Origin: Saccoglossus kowalevskii
Taxonomy: Eukaryota > Hemichordata > Enteropneusta > Harrimaniidae
DNA: 25,906 nucleotides
NCBI RefSeq assembly: GCF_000003605.2
Contig: NW_003147272.1
Location: forward strand, 579,498-605,403
Reading direction: 5' to 3'
Positions 2,831 through 24,213 of this stretch are shown here, piece by piece. A model generated the notes under the pieces. It saw nothing but the letters and a program-made list of their open reading frames with translations, ran no database searches and was not told the origin of the DNA. Positions within the stretch are counted from its first letter, which is position 1. Each line of letters begins with the position of its first letter. A program made the position numbers and the translations under genes.

Positions 2831-4252
2831 TATTTTACCTGCAGTGCCTCTTAAAAGATTTCAATTTCATCAAATTTGGCTCAATTAATTACAAATAAAG
2901 CAAAAGTAGAACCCTGAATTATGCTAGTGACAACAAACTTATTACTAGAGACGAATTTGTTAAATTAGCTTCATTGTATATCTGGAATTACTTAAAATAC
3001 AATATAACTTAATGAGTGGAAATAACGTGTTTTACAGTTCACTATAATATCCCTGAACAACCAGCAATTACATAGTTACACTTAGGTATGGAGCAAACAT
3101 AAACGATTAGGGAACTTCCTATGCACACAAAGCCTCAGAAAGGTATTTAAACAAATTTGTTATTAAAAATTAAGTACATTTTTGTATATGACAAATTTAA
3201 TTTGAACTTCAAAATCACTGTATGATTTAACGTTGCCATGGCCACAAAATGGATGGTTTAGAATCCTAACTATGCATGGACATGTACATGTATGCAAGAC
3301 TAAAATAATAGCTTAGACCGAAAAAATAAACTAGTTCAGATGACATGCAGTAGGCCAGATTTATTTATCAGTGTAAGTTGCGTTAGCTTGCTGATTACAT
3401 TTAAACAAAACCCATTTGAAGTTTATGCAGATTTTCCAATTTGGTAAAAATATTACAGCCAGTTCCATGCATGTGTCATTGAATTTTTGATTGATTTTTT
3501 TCACTATTTTTTATTTCAATGATCGCAAAGGACAAGCAGGAAAAGATGTAAAATAACTAGAAAGCCATGATCAGAGATGACAGATCACCCTGGCAACCTG
3601 GTGTGACTTTGTGAAGTTATTGTGTTGGGTATGTAAACATTACAGGTATGCATTCAAGCTTTAGGCAGGCAGATGAGTCTACTTGTACTTAGGAAGTACT
3701 CAGTACTGAAATTTATTAACATGCTACTAAAATTTTCCTTACGACTAAATATGCAAATGAGGCCAGACATAATTATGCATTTTTAATGAGGTCACACAAC
3801 CATATATGGTTATTAAATATATTGACCAGATCTAGTGTGAAATTTCTTCGATATAACACTGTGTGAATATTTCTATCTGCAATAGTGCTACTGCTATGAC
3901 TCGACACCGTACAGATGAATGGACGCAGCAAACCACTATTTCACAGGAAGAGTGTTATAATATATGCAGGCCAAAGAGATGATTAGGAATATTCACAATT
4001 ACCCATTCTCATCAACAATTAGGTATGGGGATATTTGGCTAATAGGCAGGGGTAACATAACAATTCAACAAAAATATATATTCTAAGGTGAAAGTACATT
4101 ATTTCACAATGTGCACAGTCACAACAGAACACAGAGCAAGGAGGACTTGTACAAATGAATGTACATTATGGTGACTAGCCCTCAACAAAACATTCTATTC
4201 ATCATACTATAATAATACCAACTATATTAAATACTGTAATGACAGACTCAAA
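2831..4252. other. AT-rich spacer, no gene seen
   Basis: No long open frames and no inverted or tandem repeat longer than short motifs. CATGTACATGTATG-type alternation occurs near 3280 and an ATGCAAATGAGGCC / ATGCATTTTTAATGAGGTC doublet near 3751-3794. Both are too short to classify. Confidence 0.5.
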
Positions 4253-4466
4253 TACTATGGTAAAACACTTTATTTTCGCTTGGAATTAATTTTCTCTGTT
4301 TTCACTGAAGGAATGATTCAGTGAAAATAAGATTGAGCGAATATACCTTTTTTCCTATACTTTACATTCAACTCATCAAAAATCAGCAAAAATAAATTCT
4401 ATACAAGACACAAAAGAATCTTTTCAGCGAAAATTAATTCAAGCTAAAATAAAGTATTTTACAGTA
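4253..4466. mobile_element. CTGTAAAATAC-family MITE, copy 1
   Basis: About 214 bp. The left end TACTATGGTAAAACACTTTA is an imperfect inverted copy of the right end AAATAAAGTATTTTACAGTA. Inside are further inverted pairs such as TTTTCACTGAA...TTCAGTGAAAA, so most of the element can fold on itself. The central CTATACTTTACATTCAACTC block is shared with copies 2 and 3. It has no coding capacity. The TA ends suggest a TA target duplication, but the superfamily is unresolved. Confidence 0.75.
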
Positions 4467-4835
4467 TTCAGAAGACAATAACTACAAAGACTAACAGATA
4501 ATTTCATACAAGCAGATGACTAAAGCATTTTGGTTGACTGACTTTCATTTTTACGCTTAAATAAACTTATTATATACATCTTTGGAAAACATCTTACAAT
4601 CGCAAATGAACCGTTTCTTCTTAGACTCCTTAAGGCATTCCCTTCACACTCCCTAAGAGAATATTCAATCTACCTTGAGTCTAAAAAGTTCGTTACGTGT
4701 TATAGAAGACCCAATATTAAAGTTCCTACTTCATTGAAACTTTTAAAAATAGCTCACAATCAACAATGTTTTGAATTCACTAATTTGATAGTCTATTGTA
4801 TTTGGTTTACATTTCAAATATGTTTTATGTAGCGA
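4467..4835. other. spacer with a degenerate outlier of the following minisatellite
   Basis: Mostly AT-rich. At about 4620-4680 there are imperfect CTCCTTAAG / CTCCCTAAGAGAATATTCAATCTACC strings that resemble decayed units of the 33-bp array starting at 4836. Confidence 0.4.
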
Positions 4836-5682
4836 ATAGAAGCCTCCCTATGCTTCTCCATCCACATAGAGAACTCCCCAATTTATTACTCAGTCTACAT
4901 AGAAAGCTCCCTCAACAGACATTCCATCTACATAAAAGATCTCTAAGCTATTTCATGTACAAGAAAGCCTCCCTTCTACTATTCCATCACATACACTGTA
5001 GCTGCCTCCCTAAGCTGTTATTTACATAGAAGCATCCCTAAGCTACTATTCATGAACAAAGAAGCCTACCAGTGTTACTCCACTCACAAAGATGCCTCCC
5101 TTAGCTGACATTCCATTCACATAGAAGACTCCCTAAGCCGCTACTCCATCTACATAGAAGCATTCCTAAGCTGACATTCCAATCACATAGAAACCTCCTT
5201 AAGCTGCTACTCCATCTACATTGAAGCATCCCTAAGCTACTATTTATGTACACGGAAGCCTACCAGTGTTACTACTCCTCTAACAAAGAAGCCTCCCTTA
5301 GCTGACATTCCAATCACATAGAAGCCTCCCTAAGCTGCTATTTATGTACAAGGAAGCCTACCAGTGTTACTACTCCACTCTCTAAGAAGCCTCCCAAAGC
5401 TGACATTCCAATCACATAGAAGCCTCCCTAAGCTGCTACTCCATCTAAATAGAAGCATCCCTAAGCTACTATTCATGTACATGTTACTACTCGACTCGCA
5501 AAGAAGCCTCCCAAAGCTGATATTTCATCCACATGGAAGCCTCCTAAAACAGCTACTCTGTCCACTTAGAAGTCTCCCTAAGCTACTGTTTCATCTACAT
5601 AAAAGCTTCCCTAAGCTGCTATTCCATCAATAGGAGCCTCCTTATGTTACTTTTTCATGTAGAAGAAAGCCCCCTTAAGTTA
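4836..5682 (+). repeat. 33-bp minisatellite, about 25 diverged units with higher-order structure
   Basis: The repeating unit is close to AGAAGCCTCCCTAAGCTGCT + ATTCCATCTACAT, 33 bp in total. Many units vary at the second half (GACATTCCAATCACAT, ACTATTCATGTAC, CCAGTGTTACTACTCC). Variants recur in order. For example, a three-unit block starting TATTTATGTACA...GGAAGCCTACCAG appears at 5241 and again at 5339, 98 bp apart. Because 33 is a multiple of three, stretches stay open and encode an 11-residue repeat like RSLPKLLFHLH. Frames change and stops interrupt (open parts at 4796-5029 and 5364-5633 lie in different frames), so I read it as a non-coding array. Confidence 0.88.
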
Positions 5683-6900: not shown

Positions 6901-7030
6901 TTTAACTAATGCGTTTCTGAAAATTTACATGTATAATTACTGATTGCCATGGAAATAAATTCATTAATTGCATTACAGGAGCATAAATTATTACTGCTAT
7001 TGTTAATAAATATAATATTAGTAATAATGA

Positions 7031-7235
7031 TACTGTAGAATACTTTATTTTCGATTGGAATTAATTTTCGCTGAAGGGATGCTTCCGTGAAAATAAAATC
7101 CAGTGAATACACTTTTTATCCTATATTTTACATTCATCAAAAATCAGTGAAAATAAATTCTGTACAAAACATTTAAAAAGCCTTTTCAAAGATAATTAAT
7201 TCCAGCTGAAATATATATAAAAGTATTTTACAGTA
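7031..7235. mobile_element. CTGTAAAATAC-family MITE, copy 2
   Basis: 205 bp, in the same orientation as the copy at 4253-4466. The left end TACTGTAGAATACTTTATTT mirrors the right end AAAAGTATTTTACAGTA. The internal block CCTATATTTTACATTCATCA and the adjacent AAAAATCAGTGAAAATAAAT correspond to the same blocks in copy 1. A TA target duplication is plausible at both ends. Non-coding. Confidence 0.78.
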
Positions 7236-7327
7236 TAGTCAATGTATGATACATGTACAGTAGTACTACAGACTGATTTATTTAATTAGTTATTTACTTA
7301 GCCAGATACCACCAACTTGTCTATTAA

Positions 7328-14526: not shown

Positions 14527-15663
14527 GTAGGAAAGGTGTGAAATACATACTAAACAGTTTCCTTTGTGATTCCATGAGTCTTTGAAACAAATAGCTGTTT
14601 TTAAATCGAGCAGGTTACGAGCATCGCTGGCATGGAAATACTAAGCATATGGTAATATTATCGGCCCACGTATTTTATTAATAAAAAAATCCATAAGTCC
14701 AATGCTGTATACAAATTGTTGTTGCGTGAAACAATGTTGTATTTTATGCATGTATTTATCACCAATTCCAAGAGTAAAAGTCGTAACTTTCGAAGGTACG
14801 AGTATTATGACTCGTCCATACATTTCACTTACGTTTGTTACACTTGAATAAAGTCTACCACATGAAAAGAATGATATTTACAAAGTTTTAAATAGCAGAG
14901 CCTTCCTGATTCGAGCCTCTTGTTGATTTGACAACGGTGGGTATCATTAATATTTATTCTTTGCCTGTATCGCATTCCAGACAAAAAGTTCAAGATCGGT
15001 AAACAAGAAATGGACGAACTAAAATGTCTCCTGTGTTTCACGTGGGACATGATTATTAAAAAAAACACAGAGTTAAGCGGTCATGTACGTTCTATAAATC
15101 TAACCTTGCACACATAATCTTGTATTGACATGTTTTGTTTTTTTTTTGGTCAAAAACGACGTTGCCTTTAAGTTAACTCTTAGCGAGAGTTTACCGATTT
15201 TTTGAACAAATGTTAAGTAACTATATCGTTTTGCGTCAAACTGGGTGGCCCGAATTTAAATGTCAGTGCGTGAACTCATTGAGGTCATTGCCCATTGGTG
15301 CACGTAATTCAAACACGTGGTTATTAGAGTTCAGTCGAAATGTACGCGGATAATGCGATCGAAGTGCGCTGCAAGTTTATTATAAATGTAACATTACGCA
15401 TAATATTGTATGTTATTGTATGGTTAATATTACATATTCACTTTTTTCGAATAAAATAATTCACCGATGAGTCACAAGTATTTAAAATATGTTCTCGACT
15501 TTCGTTAGACACCTGACTCCGAGACCTGACTATCTTTTTCAATGATTTAAATGCGCCCATGTTTATATTTGCGTAATAATTACGAATGCAACGCATTATC
15601 AAGTCGGTAATATTGAAATATTCACAGACCCAATAGCCCGGGTTAGTGTCCCAACAATAATAA

Positions 15664-16237
15664 AAACAAGTAGCCTCTCGGCTGAGATAGCTCCGCTGTT
15701 AGCAATGCACATTTCAATTAAAGAACAGAAGATATCATTAGAAAATGAACAATATGCATAGTATCAATGCAATGGGACTTGCTGTTTTCAACAAGAATTC
15801 AAAAATATCATTTTTCACCATAAATGATTGTGGTTTTTAACAAGAAGAAAATATCACTTTTTACTAAAAATGACAAAAATATTCACCAAAATTACAGTAG
15901 AGAATTGACGATATCATTACAAAATGAACAAATCTGAGAGAGGTCCACATGTAGTACCTATATATGTAATATCAAAGCAATTGGACTTGCGGTTTTCAAC
16001 AAGAACTTGAAAATATCACTTTTTACCAAAAATTACAAAAATATTCACCAAAAGTAGAAGATATGATCATGAAATGAACAAATCTGAGAGAGGTCTACCC
16101 AAGGTACATATATACCAAGTATCAAAGCATTCAGGCTTGTAGTTTTCAAGAAGAAGTCGAAAAAATAAAACTGACACGGACGCCGGACAATCACTCATAT
16201 GATAAGCTCCGCTCGACAAAGTCGACAGCGGAGCTAA
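15664..16237 (+). mobile_element. HINE/pearl-like element copy 1, nested in the Harbinger-like element
   Basis: 574 bp. The head starts AAACAAGTAGCC and has TAGCTCCGCTGT at 15688-15699, the inverted complement of ACAGCGGAGCTA at 16225-16236. Unit 1 runs to about 15900 and includes a ~47-bp internal duplication shared with copy 3. A single central unit starts at 15901. The tail unit starts at about 16058 and runs into a short GAC tract. The 3' end is a 31-nt hairpin (16205-16235: AGCTCCGCT/AGCGGAGCT plus CGAC/GTCG) and CTAA. Asymmetric terminal inverted repeats, core tandem repeats, microsatellite and 3' hairpin match Helentron-associated (HINE, pearl-type) elements of bivalves. That classification is inference from structure. 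Non-coding. Confidence 0.8.
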
Positions 16238-16439
16238 TAACTTAGTTTGCGTAATTATTATAAAAGCAATACATTGCAAAGTTGAAATACTTAGAGCCCG
16301 TGCAATACTGTAAACATATTTGCGTTATTAGAAAAGCAGCACACTAAGTAAACGATGTTGAAATATTCAAAGCCAGTACAGAGTTGGATACAAGTTGTGT
16401 TATTACAGTACCGCTGGATATAACAAATAATTTACGAGA

Positions 16440-16735
16440 TTGAAGCGCGGACCAAGAAAGAAAAGGGTTGTAAGGTAATGCGCCAGTTCAGTGCGTGACT
16501 TGGGGGTCAAACGTCGGTCAACACACACTTGATGTCAGCATCGCCGCGTAGCAAGTTTTGCAACGTACTTGAAGTTCAATTGTGCCCCAAAATGATGTCG
16601 ACGATCACTCAATTGTCGCAGCACATGTTGTACCAAGTCCATGATACACCCCGTTTCGACTTTGGCTTGCTTTTCCTTCTTAGTGCATGTTCTTGTTCAC
16701 GTAAATGCGACCTCTCACCAATGTATTAAAACACT
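16440..16735. pseudogene. GC-richer patch inside the Harbinger-like element, possible relict coding sequence
   Basis: Base composition is more balanced than in neighbouring DNA. On the minus strand one frame reads through about 16560-16660 (e.g. DLVQHVLRQLSDRRHHFG), then after one stop stays open again with RRLTPKSRTELAHYL. Another frame gives basic residues (LRRKSKPKSKRG). The length and basic character would suit a decayed transposase N-terminus or a captured host exon. I cannot align it with confidence to a Harbinger transposase. A plus-strand frame at 16529-16729 is equally uninformative. Confidence 0.2.
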
Positions 16736-17068
16736 TTGAATTTATACTTAAGCGTGATTATATTTGGTCTACGCGAAACATTAATCTTTCTAAACATTTT
16801 CTGAGACCATGCATGATATATATTCACAAAATAATGAATGCGATTATATTTTATATTATGTTGATCTCTACGTCTTTCTGGATCGTTTTGTGATTTTATT
16901 CCAAGGCTCAGGCAAATAAAATAATGTCAACTATTATAGACTAGTTTCCCAGCTTTTGGCTCAGCCAAATTGGTTTAATTTTTCATTAGAACTTTGTGAA
17001 CCTTTTAATTTCCCAGTTCTTTGTGTTCATTAATGGTCTTGACAATAAGTGTGAATTGCTGTGCGAAC

Positions 17069-17163
17069 CCACCGCGGAAGACCACGGTCAGCCGGCGTCA
17101 TGGAATCTATGCATAAATTTGCAAAAAATGCGGTCGACCGGCGAGCACCCACCACCACCGCGG
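17069..17163. repeat. right subterminal CCGCGG-rich block
   Basis: CCGCGG at 17072 and 17158, with ACCACGG, GTCGACCGGCG and CACCACCACCG between, mirrors the left subterminal block. Confidence 0.6.
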
Positions 17164-17209
17164 TAATGACCGGGCTGCACCGCCCGTTTGATTTCCTACT
17201 CTTCCCTTA

Positions 17210-18028
17210 TGCATATTAATTTGCATTCATACTCTTCTGGATGGCTCTAAGTACCTACTAAATCTGATGGACTAACCAATTTTATGTCTTCTCCGCCTGA
17301 GTGTTGGGTGCAAAACTTCAAAAATTTGTATACTGTATTTGCTCTGTATTAGAAGCATATCTCTACCAGAAGCACATATAAAACAACTTTGAATTGCATT
17401 TTAAATTTTAAGAATACAGCTTGTTTTGACATAATTTCGGTACTACTAATAAAAGAAATATGGTAGAAATTTTTCTATAATTTTTTTTTTTTTTACCAAA
17501 AGGACATACTAGTATTACATTGGGTTTAAGGTCATCATCTGAAAAATGTTGTCAGGGATTGGAATAACCTTACAAGACTGAAACTGGTATAACTGCAAAA
17601 ACATTTTTTAAGACAGAAAAAAAAATTCCTCCTATTATATTATGTGCAAACAACAAAGAATGTGTGAAATGCAGGTCCCAAATTTATGCAATTGATTAAA
17701 GAACTCTACAAAAAAAAAAACGTAAAACCAAGCATTGATAAAGAAACATACTGATTTGCCAGCAATCAAAAATTGAAAGTCAAAGAAACGTCAATTTTAT
17801 TATTTTCAGAATAGAAGGAGTGACCCCCTAGGTACATAAACAGTCATATTTACTTTCTACTGTCAGATACCTTTGAAATTAACAATCCTGGTGCAGTAGA
17901 ATTCCCAAATTGTTAAAATAACTCATTATAACAAAATAAGTATACAAGCAGTTATTTTTATGAAACCCAATATACATAATTAAATAAGCAGTTCTAATGC
18001 ATTTGTAAAGCTGATACTTACCTCAATT
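17210..18028. other. AT-rich spacer, no feature seen
   Basis: Poly-A/T runs only. No ORF, paired termini or arrays. Confidence 0.5.
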
Positions 18029-18095
18029 TAAAACATGCAAATTAATTATTTAATAAAACGTGCAAATTAATTATAAAACATGCAAATTAATTAAT
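18029..18095 (+). repeat. three tandem octamer-plus-homeobox motifs
   Basis: AAAAC(A/G)TGCAAATTAATTA occurs three times, with the (A/G)TGCAAAT core at 18035, 18060 and 18080. ATGCAAAT is the POU-factor octamer and TAATTA a homeodomain core. The cluster could be a small tandem expansion or a binding-site array. The AT-rich background makes chance motifs common, but the threefold repetition is real. Confidence 0.6.
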
Positions 18096-18566
18096 TACTG
18101 GTAATAAAAATCATTTTATTTATACATAGAAAAATAATGGATGGAATATGTGGAGAGCTTTAATGACAAAGGTCAAAACCTCAAATGTATCTTTCAATGA
18201 GTATTGATTCACCAATGCACCTGCTTACACAGAGGTCATCAAATTTATGAGTCCCCAAGGTTTGCAGGAATGCCACATATGGTGCATGAGTACTTTTCAC
18301 ACACAAACAAAATCATAGATTGACTGTACAAGTATAAGATAAACTTGTGATTGATATTTACATATACATTGAGGGAGAAAAATAATCACTTGAAACTCAA
18401 ACTAATTTTGAAAAAAAAAAGCTATTTTATGCAGTAGTAATTTAGGTGGCTGCATATAACTATTTATTCCAGATAATTTGACATGTAAACACAGCTTCAA
18501 ATTAATTTTCTGATAATTTACATATATATGATTTTATTACACGAGGTTTGTCATTTACATGTTAAC
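18096..18566. other. spacer, no feature seen
   Basis: AT-rich, with nothing identifiable before the MITE terminus at 18567. Confidence 0.5.
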
Positions 18567-19383
18567 TACTGTAAAATACTCAATTTTGCCTGAAAAATTG
18601 TTTTGGGTGTTTTGTGTGGATTTTATTTTCACTGAATTTTGAAGAGTTGAATGTAAAATATAGGAAACAAGCAGCCTATCGGCTGAGATAGCTCCGCTGT
18701 TAGCAATGCACATTTCAATTAAAGAACTGAAGACATCATTAGAAAATGAACAATATGAATAGTATCAAAGCAATCGGACTTACAGTTTTCAACAAGAAGT
18801 CGAAAATATCACTTTTTACCAAAAATGACAAAAATATTCACCAAAATTAGAGAATTAAAGATATCATCACAAAATGAACAAATCTGAGAGAGGTCCACAT
18901 GTAGTATCTATATATGTAGTATCAAAGCGATTGGACTTGCGGTTTTTAACAAGAAGTCGAAAATATCACTTTTTACCAAAAATGACAAAAATATTCACCA
19001 AAATTAGAAAATTAAAGATATCATTACAAAATGAACAAATCTGAGAGAGGTCCACATGTAGTACCTATATATGTAATATCAAAGCAATTGCACTTGCGGT
19101 TTTTAACAAGAAGTCGAAAATATCACTTTTTACCTAAAATGACAAAAATATTCACCAAAATTAGAGAATTGAAGATATCAACATGAAATGAACAAACTTA
19201 AGAGAGGTCTACCCAAGGTACATATACACCAAGTATCAAAGCATTCAGGCTTGTAGTTTTCAAGAAGAAGTCGAAAAAGTAAAACATTGACACGGACGAC
19301 GACGGACGACACCGGACAATCACTCATATGATAAGCTCCGCTCGACAAAGTCGACAGCGGAGCTAAAAAAGTATTTTACTGTA
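18567..19383. mobile_element. CTGTAAAATAC-family MITE, copy 3, split by a HINE
   Basis: TACTGTAAAATACTCAATTT at 18567 is one terminus and AAGTATTTTACTGTA ending at 19383 the other. The left part (TTTATTTTCACTGAATTTTG then AAGAGTTGAATGTAAAATATAGGAAA, up to about 18667) aligns with the reverse complement of copies 1 and 2. The HINE at 18665-19366 interrupts it. Only the last ~17 bp of the MITE remain after the HINE, so about 80-100 bp expected from copies 1 and 2 are missing at the junction. Confidence 0.7.
18665..19366 (+). mobile_element. HINE/pearl-like element copy 2, nested in a MITE
   Basis: 702 bp. Head AAACAAGCAGCC, with TAGCTCCGCTGT at 18689-18700 and its inverted counterpart at 19354-19365. 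Core unit starts at 18851, 19008 and 19165 are exactly 157 bp apart, and the two central units are nearly identical. Unit 1 lacks the ~47-bp duplication of copies 1 and 3. The tail has the longest GAC tract of the three (GACGACGACGGACGACACC region at about 19292-19313). The terminal hairpin at 19334-19364 is followed by CTAA. Non-coding. Confidence 0.82.
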
Positions 19384-19442
19384 TTTGCATGACATGAAAA
19401 GAAGACCAGATTTAATCTGATGATACCATGAAGCAACCATAA

Positions 19443-19633
19443 TACTGTAAAACCATTTATTTTCACTGACATTTAATTTAACTATTTGGATGTTTTGATC
19501 ATATTCACTGTGTTTTAACAAATATGTCTAGAAAATGAGTTCTATTGTTATTTTACATGTTCATGTATATTTAATTTAGCAGATTTTACACATCAGCGAA
19601 AATAGCAAAATTAGTGATAAATTAATAACAGTA
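19443..19633. mobile_element. CTGTAAAATAC-family MITE, copy 4, diverged
   Basis: Starts TACTGTAAAACCATTTATTT and ends GATAAATTAATAACAGTA. TTTTCACTGA near the left and CAGCGAAAATAGC near the right mirror the arms of the other copies. The middle is too diverged for base-by-base alignment by eye. Confidence 0.6.
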
Positions 19634-20032
19634 TCTGCCCCCCTACCTCCTCTCACTTAAATTGATTAATTCCCCAGTTATGTCTTGAACTGCAGTTTGA
19701 CTTCTCAGTATACATATACATTTTTGTAAGAACTATCAATCAATAATACCATTATGGTAGACTCCGCAAATATTTAATATGCTTTTTAAACATTTTAGCA
19801 GCTAATCTATCATATTTTATACTGAGGTTTGATTTCACTGATCATGAAGTGACTGTGTACTTTGACTGCATTGTTGTACACAAACTGTCATAATCTGACT
19901 CCTTATTTGTAACAAGAAAATTCTACATAATTATCTTGTGATGCCAGCTGAGTATACACCATTATCTATCAAGGGCAAATAACACAAAGGTTTTGAATTT
20001 TAGGATAGGTATTAAACTGACATTAAGGAGGG
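19634..20032. other. spacer, no feature seen
   Basis: No repeat or ORF of note. Confidence 0.45.
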
Positions 20033-20226
20033 ATTAATCTGAGAGGGTGAGGCTATCTCTATATCAGGACTGTGAAATCTGTATTAAAATGGTACAATGC
20101 AACAGAGAGAATGTGGTTTCTATTAGAGCATCTACACATATGAGAAATGGTGAATTTTTGGTTCTCAATTATTCAAAAAGAATGAGTGCGACTTCTATCA
20201 GGGATGTGGCTTCTAATACAGATTTA
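20033..20226 (+). repeat. degenerate GTG(A/C/G)CTTCTATYAG-type repeat fragment
   Basis: GTGGTTTCTATTAGAGC, GCGACTTCTATCAGGG, GTGGCTTCTAATACAG and, more weakly, GTGAGGCTATCTCTATATCA share a common form. A 67-codon frame through this stretch (20047-20250) owes its openness to the repetition. It resembles a recurrent ACTTCTAT(T/C)AGGG-type invertebrate repeat. No family name can be given. Confidence 0.4.
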
Positions 20227-20439
20227 CGGTATGTAATGAAACAAACCTGACAATTCAAACTACTATAAGCAGCGGTGTTCTTTGCTCCAGTCACAGAACT
20301 ATAAATTTCAAATACCTGTACGATACCCTATCTGCCACTAGAATTTAATTTGGGTGTAAACTTACCGGTAATTTCAGTATTGCATATAAATTCGTTTCAC
20401 TTAATCACAAGAATTAGAGATGCATGCAAAATACAGAAA

Positions 20440-21186
20440 AAACAAGCAGCCTCTCGGCTGAGATAGCTCCGCTGTTAGCAATGCACATTTCAATTAAAGA
20501 ACAGAAGATATCATTAGAAAATGAACAATACGTATAGTATCAATGCAATGGGACTTGCTGTTTTCAACAAGAATTCAAAAATATCATTTTTCACCATAAA
20601 TGATCGTGGTTTTTAACAAGAAGAAAATATCACTTTTCACCAAAAATGACAAAAATATTCACCAAAATTAGATAATTAAAGATATCATTACAAAATGAAC
20701 AAATGTGAGAGAGGTCCACATGTAGTACCTATATATGTACCGGTAATAATATCATAGCAATTGGACTTGTCCTTTTTAACAAGAAGTCGAAAATATCACT
20801 TTTTACCAAAAATGACAAAAATATTCACCAAAATTAGAGAATTGACGATATCATTACAAAATGAACAAATTTGAGAGTGGTCCACATGTAGTACCTATAT
20901 ATGTAATATCAAAGCAATTGGACTTGTGGTTTTTAACAAGAAGTCAAAAATATCACTTTTTACCAAAAATGACAAAAATATTCACCAAAATTAGAGAATT
21001 GAAGATATGATCATGAAATGAACAAATCTGAGAGAGGTCTATCCAAGGTACATATACACCAAGTATCAAAGCATTCAGGTTTGTAGTTTTCAAGAAGAAG
21101 TCGAAAAAGTAAAACATTGACACGGACGACGACAGACAATCACTCATATGATAAGCTCCGCTTGACAAAGTCGACAGCGGAGCTAA
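20440..21186 (+). mobile_element. HINE/pearl-like element copy 3
   Basis: 747 bp, the longest copy. Head AAACAAGCAGCC, with TAGCTCCGCTGT at 20464-20475 and its inverted counterpart at 21174-21185. Unit 1 carries the ~47-bp duplication shared with copy 1. Core units start at 20672, 20838 and 20995. The first interval is 166 bp because of a 9-bp insertion (CCGGTAATA region at about 20738), and the second is 157 bp. The tail holds a GAC tract, the hairpin at 21154-21184 and CTAA. In the hairpin CGAC is changed to TGAC, which still pairs with GTCG through a wobble. Non-coding. Confidence 0.82.
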
Positions 21187-21530
21187 AAACTGTTTTGACT
21201 GCATTTTATTTTTTCTGACGAAATATACATGTAATATTAATTAATATTTCTCCAGTATAGGTAAACACACATGAAACATCAAAATTGATAAATTGACAAC
21301 TCAGTACGCTTTGTACAGTAGTACATATCATGTTACAAGTCTGGCCATAGCATGTCATGGTAGGTTTCCGTTATTACTTCACCAGTCACAAATGGTGAAT
21401 TTCAATTAAATGCAATTGAATCATCAAACTGTGAAAATACAAATTACAAAAAATTTAACAATTTGCAGCGACATTTTTGTGAAATATAATTCCCTTGATA
21501 AATGCTGTCAATTATCCAATGACGTACATT
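21187..21530. other. spacer, no feature seen
   Basis: AT-rich, no repeat or ORF of note. Confidence 0.45.
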
Positions 21531-22060: not shown

Positions 22061-22352
22061 TGACTCTGTTCTCACTCATGACCCTATTCTTGCTAGACCC
22101 TCTCTCAGTGATGACCCTTTCTTGACCTCTCTTGACCCTATCTCAGTGTTGACCTCTATTGACCCTGTCTCAGTGTTGACCTCTCTTGACCCGGTATCAG
22201 TGTTGACCTCTCTTGCCCCGGTCTCAGTGTTGACCTCTCTTGACCCTGTCTCAGTGTTGACATTGTCTTGTCTGTCTCAGTGTTGACCTTGTCTTGACCC
22301 TATATCAGTGTTGACCTTGTCCTGAGCCTATCTCAGTGTCGACCTTGTCTTG
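22061..22352 (+). repeat. 27-bp minisatellite with nuclear-receptor-like direct repeats
   Basis: The core unit is TTGACCCTGTCTCAGTGTTG then ACCTCTC (27 bp). Exact 27-bp spacing holds for TGACCT at 22123, 22150, 22177, 22204 and 22231. The last third shifts to a 28-bp variant with ACCTTGTC. Each regular unit contains TGACCT-4 nt-TGACC(C), the reverse of GGGTCA-4-AGGTCA. In the variant at 22284-22300 the spacing is 5. An 86-codon frame encoding repeated SVLTSLDPV runs through the first part, because 27 is a multiple of three. It is lost where units become 28 bp, so coding is unlikely. Confidence 0.9.
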
Positions 22353-24213
22353 AAAAAGTAAATGACGAAACACATTTGTGAGCTAAAATTACAAATATTT
22401 CATAACTTTGCAGTCTTCCTAGTATTATTTGTCATGCAAATCTACTGCTATTATTACTTTTCAATAGTTAAAAAATATTTGATTATTTTTTTTAATTTTG
22501 TACATACCAGTAAATCTTTAATGTACTGCTTTACTTTGTTAAGTCTGCGTTGTATCAATACACCTACGTGTATCACATCACTATCTGTTCACATATTTGT
22601 ATTATAGTTGGACAAAACCCAAAAGCTCTTATGAAGCTGACAGAGCTAATAGGTATATTGCAGATTATACAAAGACAGAATGCAACTAAAAATAATCAAA
22701 GTACATATTGATTTCAAAACATTTTCATCTCTGTGGAATGAAACATTGTCTAAAGATCACTTTGTATTTTGCTAAAAAAAACATTAAGTAGTCCTGAAAT
22801 CGATAACACTTACAACCATGACATGCAGCATTTGTATACTATAGAACTGCATGAAATTGAAACTTAGGAAAGTATTAAGTAACCCATTATATTGCAGAAA
22901 ATAACTTGTTTTCTCAATAATACAGTACCACTTTTGAAATATCAGATTTCTTGAAAGTGAATGTTTATGTATGCATTGTGGATGTACATGCATGTGAAAT
23001 AAAATTTGCCTCATTGACAAATCACACCACCAATATCCAATATTTATGGTGCTATACCTGTTAATAGGACTACTGAACTCAGTAAATCCATATTTGATTT
23101 TAAAATTCAGATACTTAGAGAGTATGGATTACACCTAATTGTATTTCCTTCATTAGATCAACCATAAATGGCTTCTATGGATCAATGTATATTTTGAACT
23201 TTAGATGAAAGCAATCCTGATCTTAATGCATGCTTTATAAGTAAATGCAAGGAAGTCAGTATAGCACAAGACGTACAGCTATAATAGATACATTGGGCGA
23301 TGAAGCAAATTTGCACCCATATTCGTATAGTTTCTTGTTAATGACAACAATGGTATATGTGCAATTGTCTCAACATAATTTCAACGAAATAAATATAACG
23401 ATTGGTTTTGTATGCCTGACTGCGTTTGGAAGAATGACAAAACTTCACAAGCAAGTAACTGCAAACTGTTTTTTTTGCATTGTTGGCAGAATTCTGTAAA
23501 TTTACTCTTCTAATGCTTCTCTTTTGAACCCAAGATATCCATGGGACATATTTTCTTTTATTAAGCTCTTCATCTATAGCACAAAATATTGCTTTTGCCA
23601 CTTTCAGTTGACAGAAGGCTTTAACCCTTCTGTGTGTTATTCATGTTTGGGGCCTACTTCTAAACATGAAAAACAGTGGTTTGTTTAATCACACTTGCGC
23701 TTGTATCATCTCGACCAATCAGAGCTACTTATTCAAGCAATTGAAATGTTGGTATTTAATTATTCTTTAAGTACTTTGGATGGTCACTATACACAGGTCT
23801 GACTGGATAATAATAAATTCTCATAACCATTATTCAACAAAATGTGCATAATGTTATTATCACCATAGTTTTGACATCGACCCCACTTTTTCAGAAAATG
23901 CATTCCAGCGGTGTGCCTGCAAGAAAATTTGGCAATGAGAAATGTTGTAATTACATCTTAAAAAACACTTTGATTCAGGTGAATTTAAAGAGACAATAGT
24001 TGTGAACATTTTTTGTTTAAATATGCATAATCACTTAAAGATGACCAAAACTTACCGAAATGGCACAACTGCATGGACTCTACTCAAGGGTAATGTCACG
24101 TTAAGCAATGTGAAAACTAAAAGTTGAGCCAGAGGAAACAGCCAGTAACCACCTAAATGACCACCTACGCTGAATAATATACCAGCTACTTTTTATTTCC
24201 CCTTTTTTAGGGA
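22353..24213. other. AT-rich spacer, no gene supported
   Basis: Several ORFs of 78-87 codons on both strands show no domain, no repeats and no splice context. Two at 23245-23601 overlap on opposite strands, which points to chance. No paired termini were found. Confidence 0.45.

Follow-up and report, generated by a model that had tools for sequence, protein, structure and literature searches.

Repeats with 157-bp core units in Saccoglossus kowalevskii: a well-supported family of non-autonomous Helentrons

Three elements at one locus

In a 25,906-nucleotide stretch of the genome of the hemichordate Saccoglossus kowalevskii (NCBI RefSeq assembly GCF_000003605.2, contig NW_003147272.1, positions 579,498 to 605,403 of the forward strand; the whole stretch is called the window below) lie three related repeats that are, very probably, non-autonomous Helentrons, or Helentron-associated interspersed elements (HINEs), of a family with about 1000 copies. 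All three are full copies on the minus strand: E1 (15667..16236, 570 bp) carries one near-full core unit and a composite unit, E2 (18668..19365, 698 bp) two full core units, and E3 (20443..21185, 743 bp) two full core units and a composite unit.

Read on the minus strand, E1, E2 and E3 share one order of parts: a T-run, a 5′ subterminal inverted repeat (subTIR) with a complementary inverted repeat (IR), a GTC tract, 157-bp units, a 3′ subTIR, a palindrome, CTTG, and a further T-run. In the end pattern expected for the family, TTTT directly precedes TAGCTCCGCTGT at the 5′ boundary, and ACAGCGGAGCTATCTCAGCC..GGCTGCTTG is directly followed by TT at the 3′ boundary. The 5′ subTIR TAGCTCCGCTGT was placed by motif scan at 16225..16236 in E1, 19354..19365 in E2 and 21174..21185 in E3. 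Its partner, the IR AGCGGAGCT, lies 11 nt downstream in each (16205..16213, 19334..19342 and 21154..21162; motif scan and folding), and the two pair as a 5′ hairpin. GTC microsatellite tracts, delimited by eye, follow at 16173..16188, 19289..19318 and 21119..21138. Toward the other end, motif scan located the 3′ subTIR ACAGCGGAGCTA at 15688..15699 (E1), 18689..18700 (E2) and 20464..20475 (E3), and sequence and folding located the terminal palindrome at 15672..15683 (AGCCGAGAGGCT), 18672..18685 (CAGCCGATAGGCTG) and 20447..20460 (CAGCCGAGAGGCTG). The 12-bp pair TAGCTCCGCTGT / ACAGCGGAGCTA has no mismatch in any of the three elements, and a scan of the window that allowed up to two mismatches found no further site of it. 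The unit arrays were delimited with Tandem Repeats Finder, which reported 3.3 copies of a 157-bp unit in E2 (18760..19277) and two rows, of 2.7 and 3.1 copies of 157 bp, in E3 (20606..21108). Judged by reading frames, coding capacity is lacking: a single stop-to-stop frame of at least 90 aa overlaps the elements (95 aa, minus strand, 20953-21240), and it spans core repeats.

A sequence-only reading of the window had described three same-orientation copies with common ends, 157-bp units, a GAC tract and a hairpin, and all of these are present. Its count of one, two and two units holds for near-full units between anchors, which are spaced 150+179 in E1, 157+157+128 in E2 and 157+166+174 in E3 (the 179 and the 174 are composite). 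Its orientation, on the other hand, has to be turned round, since the subTIR-palindrome order published for HINEs and Helitron2 exists here on the minus strand only. The parts had been described from the plus strand, and the 5′ end was therefore named the 3′ end: what was called the CTAA “3′ end”, together with its 31-nt hairpin, forms the 5′ end of an element on the minus strand, whose 3′ end is the “head” and carries a palindrome of its own. The last A of this CTAA belongs to the flanking T-run of the minus strand and is not surely a fixed base of the element.

Copies across the genome

Exact searches of the assembly (572,110,611 bases in 4830 contigs) found the 31-bp 5′ hairpin 820 times and the 33-bp 3′ end 1012 times. 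Neither reversed control was found at all, so the occurrence of the hairpin is not due to chance. A 107-bp 5′ query gave 1143 first-look candidates, 40 of which were scored and proved 95–100% identical each; a 93-bp 3′ query gave 1232 candidates, and the 40 scored were each 100% identical. The family of E1, E2 and E3 has roughly 1000 copies in the genome, and the numerous identical copies suggest that it spread recently.

For closer comparison, 32 full copies were obtained by fuzzy scan from the 40 best-scoring 5′ ends (39 were fetched), a sample that favours young copies. It contains E1, E2 (as L004) and both copies of a tandem at L052, misses E3, and includes four copies with N gaps. In all 32 the 3′ subTIR stops exactly 21 nt from the 3′ end; compared with the 5′ subTIR of the same copy it has no mismatch in 24, one in 7 and two in 1. 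The palindrome is retained in all 1012 exact 3′ ends. With a slash marking the boundary, the element ends are T/TAGC (5′) and CTTG/TT (3′); a 5′ TC and a 3′ CTRR are not present. When the terminal 45 nt of the 5′ end were folded, none of 200 base-composition shuffles was as stable, in each of E1, E2 and E3.

Some copies seemed to be without a 3′ end. Truncation was considered for these and rejected on the basis of 11 stretches (L033-L043) taken downstream of them or of long arrays: seven homology blocks stop at assembly gaps (L033-L036 and L038-L040) and that of L042 four bases before a gap, L037 and L041 are interrupted by other sequence and have their 3′ end further on, and L043 is a long array. 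The copies at L009 and L019 run into contig ends. Homology blocks in the 20 stretches compared are all in one orientation. Among the first 100 listed 5′ ends, four gaps between neighbours are shorter than 5 kb by eye (two on C189, one each on C315 and C363), and these four close pairs are all same-strand; clusters share their orientation, as in the window.

Insertion inside T-runs

TTTT precedes 660 of the 820 exact 5′ ends and TT follows 927 of the 1012 exact 3′ ends; as background, 2.0% of the 112,642 positions in the DNA flanking the 32 copies have TTTT before them and 12.6% have TT after them. At least four Ts stand at the 5′ side of 29 of the 32 full copies, and at least two at the 3′ side of 30. 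An exact junction duplication of 5–10 bp was found in none of them.

Uninterrupted relatives of occupied sites allow the junctions to be compared directly. The joined flanks of E2 are 84% identical over 108 nt to an uninterrupted repeat in L037, with 5+3 Ts in the filled and 8 in the empty site. They also match L025, L016 and two sites in the window, both in a repeat resembling a miniature inverted-repeat transposable element (MITE) and without an assigned strand: 4340..4435, which is 81.8% identical across the junction with 12 aligned bases on the far side, and 7059..7197, an uninterrupted paralogue of both the E2 site (75% across the junction) and the E3 site (69.5%). E3 also matches L025 (63%, ten Ts against eight). 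The copy at L003 seems to have landed inside a core unit belonging to another copy, with seven Ts filled and five empty. The joined flanks of L026 match L069 and L070 (98% with a 120-nt query, eight Ts against seven); in 40 of the 41 rows listed in that search, the alignment runs through the junction and takes in at least 118 of the 120 query bases, and two of these were compared base by base. Between filled and empty sites the T count is the sole difference: it amounts to 0–2 in the closer comparisons and to 5 in the most diverged. The family inserts inside T-runs without target duplication other than Ts. A further candidate, L005 against L036, was rejected as a clean empty site: its junction similarity is good on the 5′ side only.

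The MITE-like repeat is about 220 bp long and has two copies in the window (about 4247-4470 and 7028-7245, by eye) that are 76% alike over 216 nt; its ends resemble TACTGTAAAATACTTTATTTTCG, and other copies of this repeat harbour E2 and E3. The flanks of E1 (window 15467-16436) are weakly alike (about 60% over 199 columns with many gaps), as if E1 lay in an old tandem repeat.

Core units, arrays and tandem copies

Unit spacing in the family is mostly 157 bp, and in a strict scan the number of unit anchors in a copy ranged from 1 to 41. Lengths of the gap-free copies in the set of 32 run from 400 to 6564 bp. Of 29 such copies, 23 have their last unit anchor 87 nt from the 3′ end, and 26 have their first one 154–176 nt from the 5′ end. 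At the long extreme, L043 (C2586:1-9900) holds a HINE of 6564 bp with 41 anchors that directly joins a second array reaching the end of the stretch; the L043 array is a satellite-like expansion.

Homogenisation of units within elements was considered and is not supported. Mean identity (L043 units excluded) is 0.923 between units of one element (57 pairs), against 0.927 between units at the same position in other elements (553 pairs); for other pairs it is 0.913 (1220 pairs). Slippage or unequal exchange is the most likely way in which core units are gained and lost. A composite unit adjoining the 3′ module is common to E1 and E3, and a genome-wide count of its junction motif gave 170 occurrences. 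The motif is therefore the mark of a subfamily rather than of a local duplication, and E1 and E3 are members of a widespread subfamily and not local duplicates.

Whole elements also stand in tandem. A pattern search of the genome found seven exact head-to-tail junctions, in which a 3′ end and the next 5′ end are at most 12 nt apart, and L052 provides an eighth, with two Ts between the copies. Random adjacency of ends should produce well below one such junction for about 1000 copies in 572 Mb, an expectation reached by reasoning rather than computed. The eight junctions fit bypassed termination.

These junctions have a place in the mechanism that Helentron biology would predict for the family. 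The Rep, helicase and endonuclease of an autonomous Helentron would act in trans, with a nick at the T/TAGC 5′ end, after which one strand would be peeled off and copied by rolling circle. Copying would end on reaching the 3′ module: the subTIR there can pair with that of the 5′ end, a step suggested by Bao and Jurka (PMC3627910), and the palindrome would act as terminator. The ends would then be joined into a T-run, and a missed termination would give rise to tandem copies.

Comparison with known elements

The architecture found in the S. kowalevskii family is described in four papers (PMC7492417, PMC4067079, PMC3627910, PMC5139131). HINEs and Helitron2 elements have a subTIR at or near the 5′ terminus and, about 20–60 bp before the 3′ terminus, a second one with a palindrome after it (PMC4067079, PMC3627910). 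The 5′ subTIR of HINEs is 11–15 bp long, and an IR complementary to it is present in DINE-1 and Cg_HINE and absent in HINE-Mo (PMC4067079, PMC7492417). Every structural feature of HINEs that was tested is found in our family: a 5′ subTIR (12 bp, beside a T-run), an IR, a 3′ subTIR with palindrome, a T-rich target and no coding capacity.

A close counterpart in description is Cg_HINE of the Pacific oyster (Zeljko et al., 2020, PMC7492417). Like the S. kowalevskii family, Cg_HINE has a 5′ subTIR with an IR, a GTC-type microsatellite, units resembling satellite DNA and lying in one orientation with respect to the ends, a 3′ subTIR followed by a palindrome, and insertion at TT without target site duplication (TSD). 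It differs in its units, as the consensus units of 13 oyster clusters are 138–181 bp long and none is 157 bp (compared by description), and in a variable segment of 10–500 bp before the first unit (PMC7492417), where our family mostly has its first anchor at 154–176 nt. HINE-Mo and DINE-1 (Thomas et al., 2014, PMC4067079) share with the S. kowalevskii family the subTIRs, the 3′ palindrome, a T-rich target that is left unmodified, empty sites, and a varying number of terminal Ts. In HINE-Mo, however, the 3′ subTIR lies about 38–60 bp from the 3′ end, as against 21 nt here, and HINE-Mo families are without the IR that is present in the S. kowalevskii family (PMC4067079). Among non-autonomous Helitron2 elements (Bao and Jurka, 2013, PMC3627910), Helitron-1N1_CRe likewise inserts after TTTT; the TTTT-specific elements are green-algal, though, and tandem core units are not mentioned in the portion of that paper cited here.

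Set beside Cg_HINE and pearl by architecture, the family is well supported as a HINE, ordinary in kind. The likeness to the bivalve elements pearl and DTC84 (Gaffney et al., 2003; Satovic and Plohl, 2013) is likewise one of description. As related in two later papers, they are modular with core repeats of about 160 bp, and pearl has been re-categorised as a non-autonomous Helentron (PMC7492417, PMC5139131). When the short end strings were looked for in the literature, 54 papers contained one of them and the 20 among these that were listed bore unrelated titles, which does not show that the family is unpublished.

Candidate autonomous partners

The genome contains Helentron-type frames for Rep, helicase and endonuclease, and the Pfam profile Helitron_like_N has eight matches in it; helicase matches also lie on C167 (931039-932007) and C1479 (9085-10050). 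On C2261 (C2261:3142000-3158000, covered by L053, L063 and L064), Rep in a 977-aa frame is followed on the same strand by PIF1 helicase and Exo_endo_phos frames. The Rep motif VEFQQCGSPHTH after FYR fits the Helentron-type serine given by Thomas et al. (PMC4067079).

A second locus, on C3364, has a decayed Rep fragment with a stop between pieces that resemble the ends of the family. A decayed 5′ module, TTTTTAT/TAGCTCTGCT, with about 81% identity, lies about 6 kb before the Rep fragment, and a 3′ module that breaks off inside the subTIR lies 1.3 kb after it, all on one strand. This may be a decayed relative of the autonomous partner, or a Rep fragment that happens to have two old copies for neighbours; since there is a further HINE 3′ half, this one well kept, 2 kb upstream, coincidence is somewhat favoured. 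At the remaining Helitron_like_N loci, no similarity to E2 or E3 with an E-value below 0.98 turned up in the stretches compared. That the family is a satellite-DNA factory (arrays of 1 to 41 anchors) and that the 8-kb locus on C3364 is the relic of its decayed autonomous partner is a joint proposal that we put forward tentatively and hold to be rather doubtful.

Weighing the explanations

The family could instead consist of cut-and-paste MITEs whose terminal inverted repeats are the 12-bp pair and which a DDE transposase moves. The pair is short and inverted, the copy number is high, and 29, 18 and 8 of the 32 copies share 2, 3 and 4 nt across their junctions. These shared bases are flanking Ts: with T-runs removed, 2, 0 and 1 copies share 2, 3 and 4 nt and none shares 5–10 nt, and since filled and empty sites differ in T number only, there is no TSD of fixed length. 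The sequence-only reading had preferred a Helentron-associated class to cut-and-paste on the strength of the pair's asymmetry, and had proposed empty-site comparison as a check. All 32 copies show this asymmetry, with distances of 0 nt at one end and 21 nt at the other, and the class is backed by the genome-wide copies, the insertion into T-runs and the empty sites free of duplication, which makes a cut-and-paste origin exceedingly improbable, though no search was aimed at a DDE transposase with the family ends. Descent from canonical Helitrons (Helitron1) would explain the lack of target duplication, the 3′ palindrome and the tandem copies, all of which are common to Helitrons; yet the 3′ end is CTTG rather than CTRR, the 5′ TC is absent, a 5′ hairpin and paired subTIRs are present, and insertion is into T-runs, so we give this origin very little credence. 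A different question is whether E1, E2 and E3 arose from one local duplication rather than by separate insertions. All three share one orientation and are confined to 5.5 kb, and a 233-nt stretch on the 3′ side is 97% identical between E1 and E3. Against this, the junction motif that E1 and E3 share marks a subfamily, with its 170 occurrences; E2 and E3 sit at T-runs in different copies of the MITE-like repeat, with empty-site paralogues; and between the joined flanks of E1 and E2 there is a match of just 18 nt, between those of E1 and E3 none. One local duplication is accordingly a very unlikely origin for the three. Among viral contigs, the 3′-end pattern matched two, in which no further similarity to the element was seen by eye and which were taken as chance matches, and the 5′-end pattern matched none.

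Several observations do count against the assignment to non-autonomous Helentrons. The 5′ side of E1 is TTAT rather than TTTT. Of 200 shuffles of the 3′ 45 nt, 44 (E1), 14 (E2) and 23 (E3) were as stable or more so; since 3′ folding is only slightly better than that of shuffles, the 3′ palindrome rests on conservation and position, not on energy. In a looser duplication test, words of 4, 5 and 6 nt from the 5′ flank, other than poly-T, turned up again early in the 3′ flank of 1, 2 and 2 of the 32 copies, and words of 7–10 nt in none. E3 and its in-window empty site are 69.5% alike, with ten Ts filled and five empty. For in-window sites, random 5′ flanks reached the joined score in 46, 191, 162 and 10 of 1000 trials; with so weak a control, the empty-site argument rests on the genome-wide sites. 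There is no direct sign of present-day activity. A search for an autonomous Rep/helicase element sharing an end was the other check proposed from the sequence alone; no autonomous element with both family ends was found at the Helitron_like_N loci compared. The C2261 Helentron is itself broken, with Rep and helicase in different frames and the frames for helicase and endonuclease parted by a stop; in its Rep motif a C stands at the R of the published consensus; and it showed no similarity to E2 or E3 over 16,001 bases, 3415 of which are gap. With these points counted, we still regard it as highly probable that E1, E2 and E3 are non-autonomous Helentrons.

Other repeats in the window

The window also contains repeats apart from the family. 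A minisatellite at 4836-5682 has units of about 33 bp with higher-order periods of 66, 98, 117 and 131 bp, and a tandem array at 22122-22353 holds 8.5 copies of the 27-bp unit TTGACCTCTCTTGACCCTGTCTCAGTG. Between 1346 and 2098 there are partial duplications (1529-1667 and 1960-2098, 86%; 1710-1835 and 1850-1974, 90%) that adjoin a GGACAGAC microsatellite and are possibly another repeat element.

Significance

Both the architecture and the link to satellites have already been published for the Pacific oyster, in a paper that also cites such a case for Drosophila elements (PMC7492417). The gain here is therefore a well-documented new example with a corrected orientation, not a new principle, and its modest interest lies in the arrays, the tandems and the possible decayed partner. 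Within a single genome the family links dispersed mobile elements with satellite-like repeats. It has arrays both short and long, copies in tandem, a nested insertion and empty sites resolved to the base, and so offers a test case for rolling-circle spread and the growth of tandem repeats.

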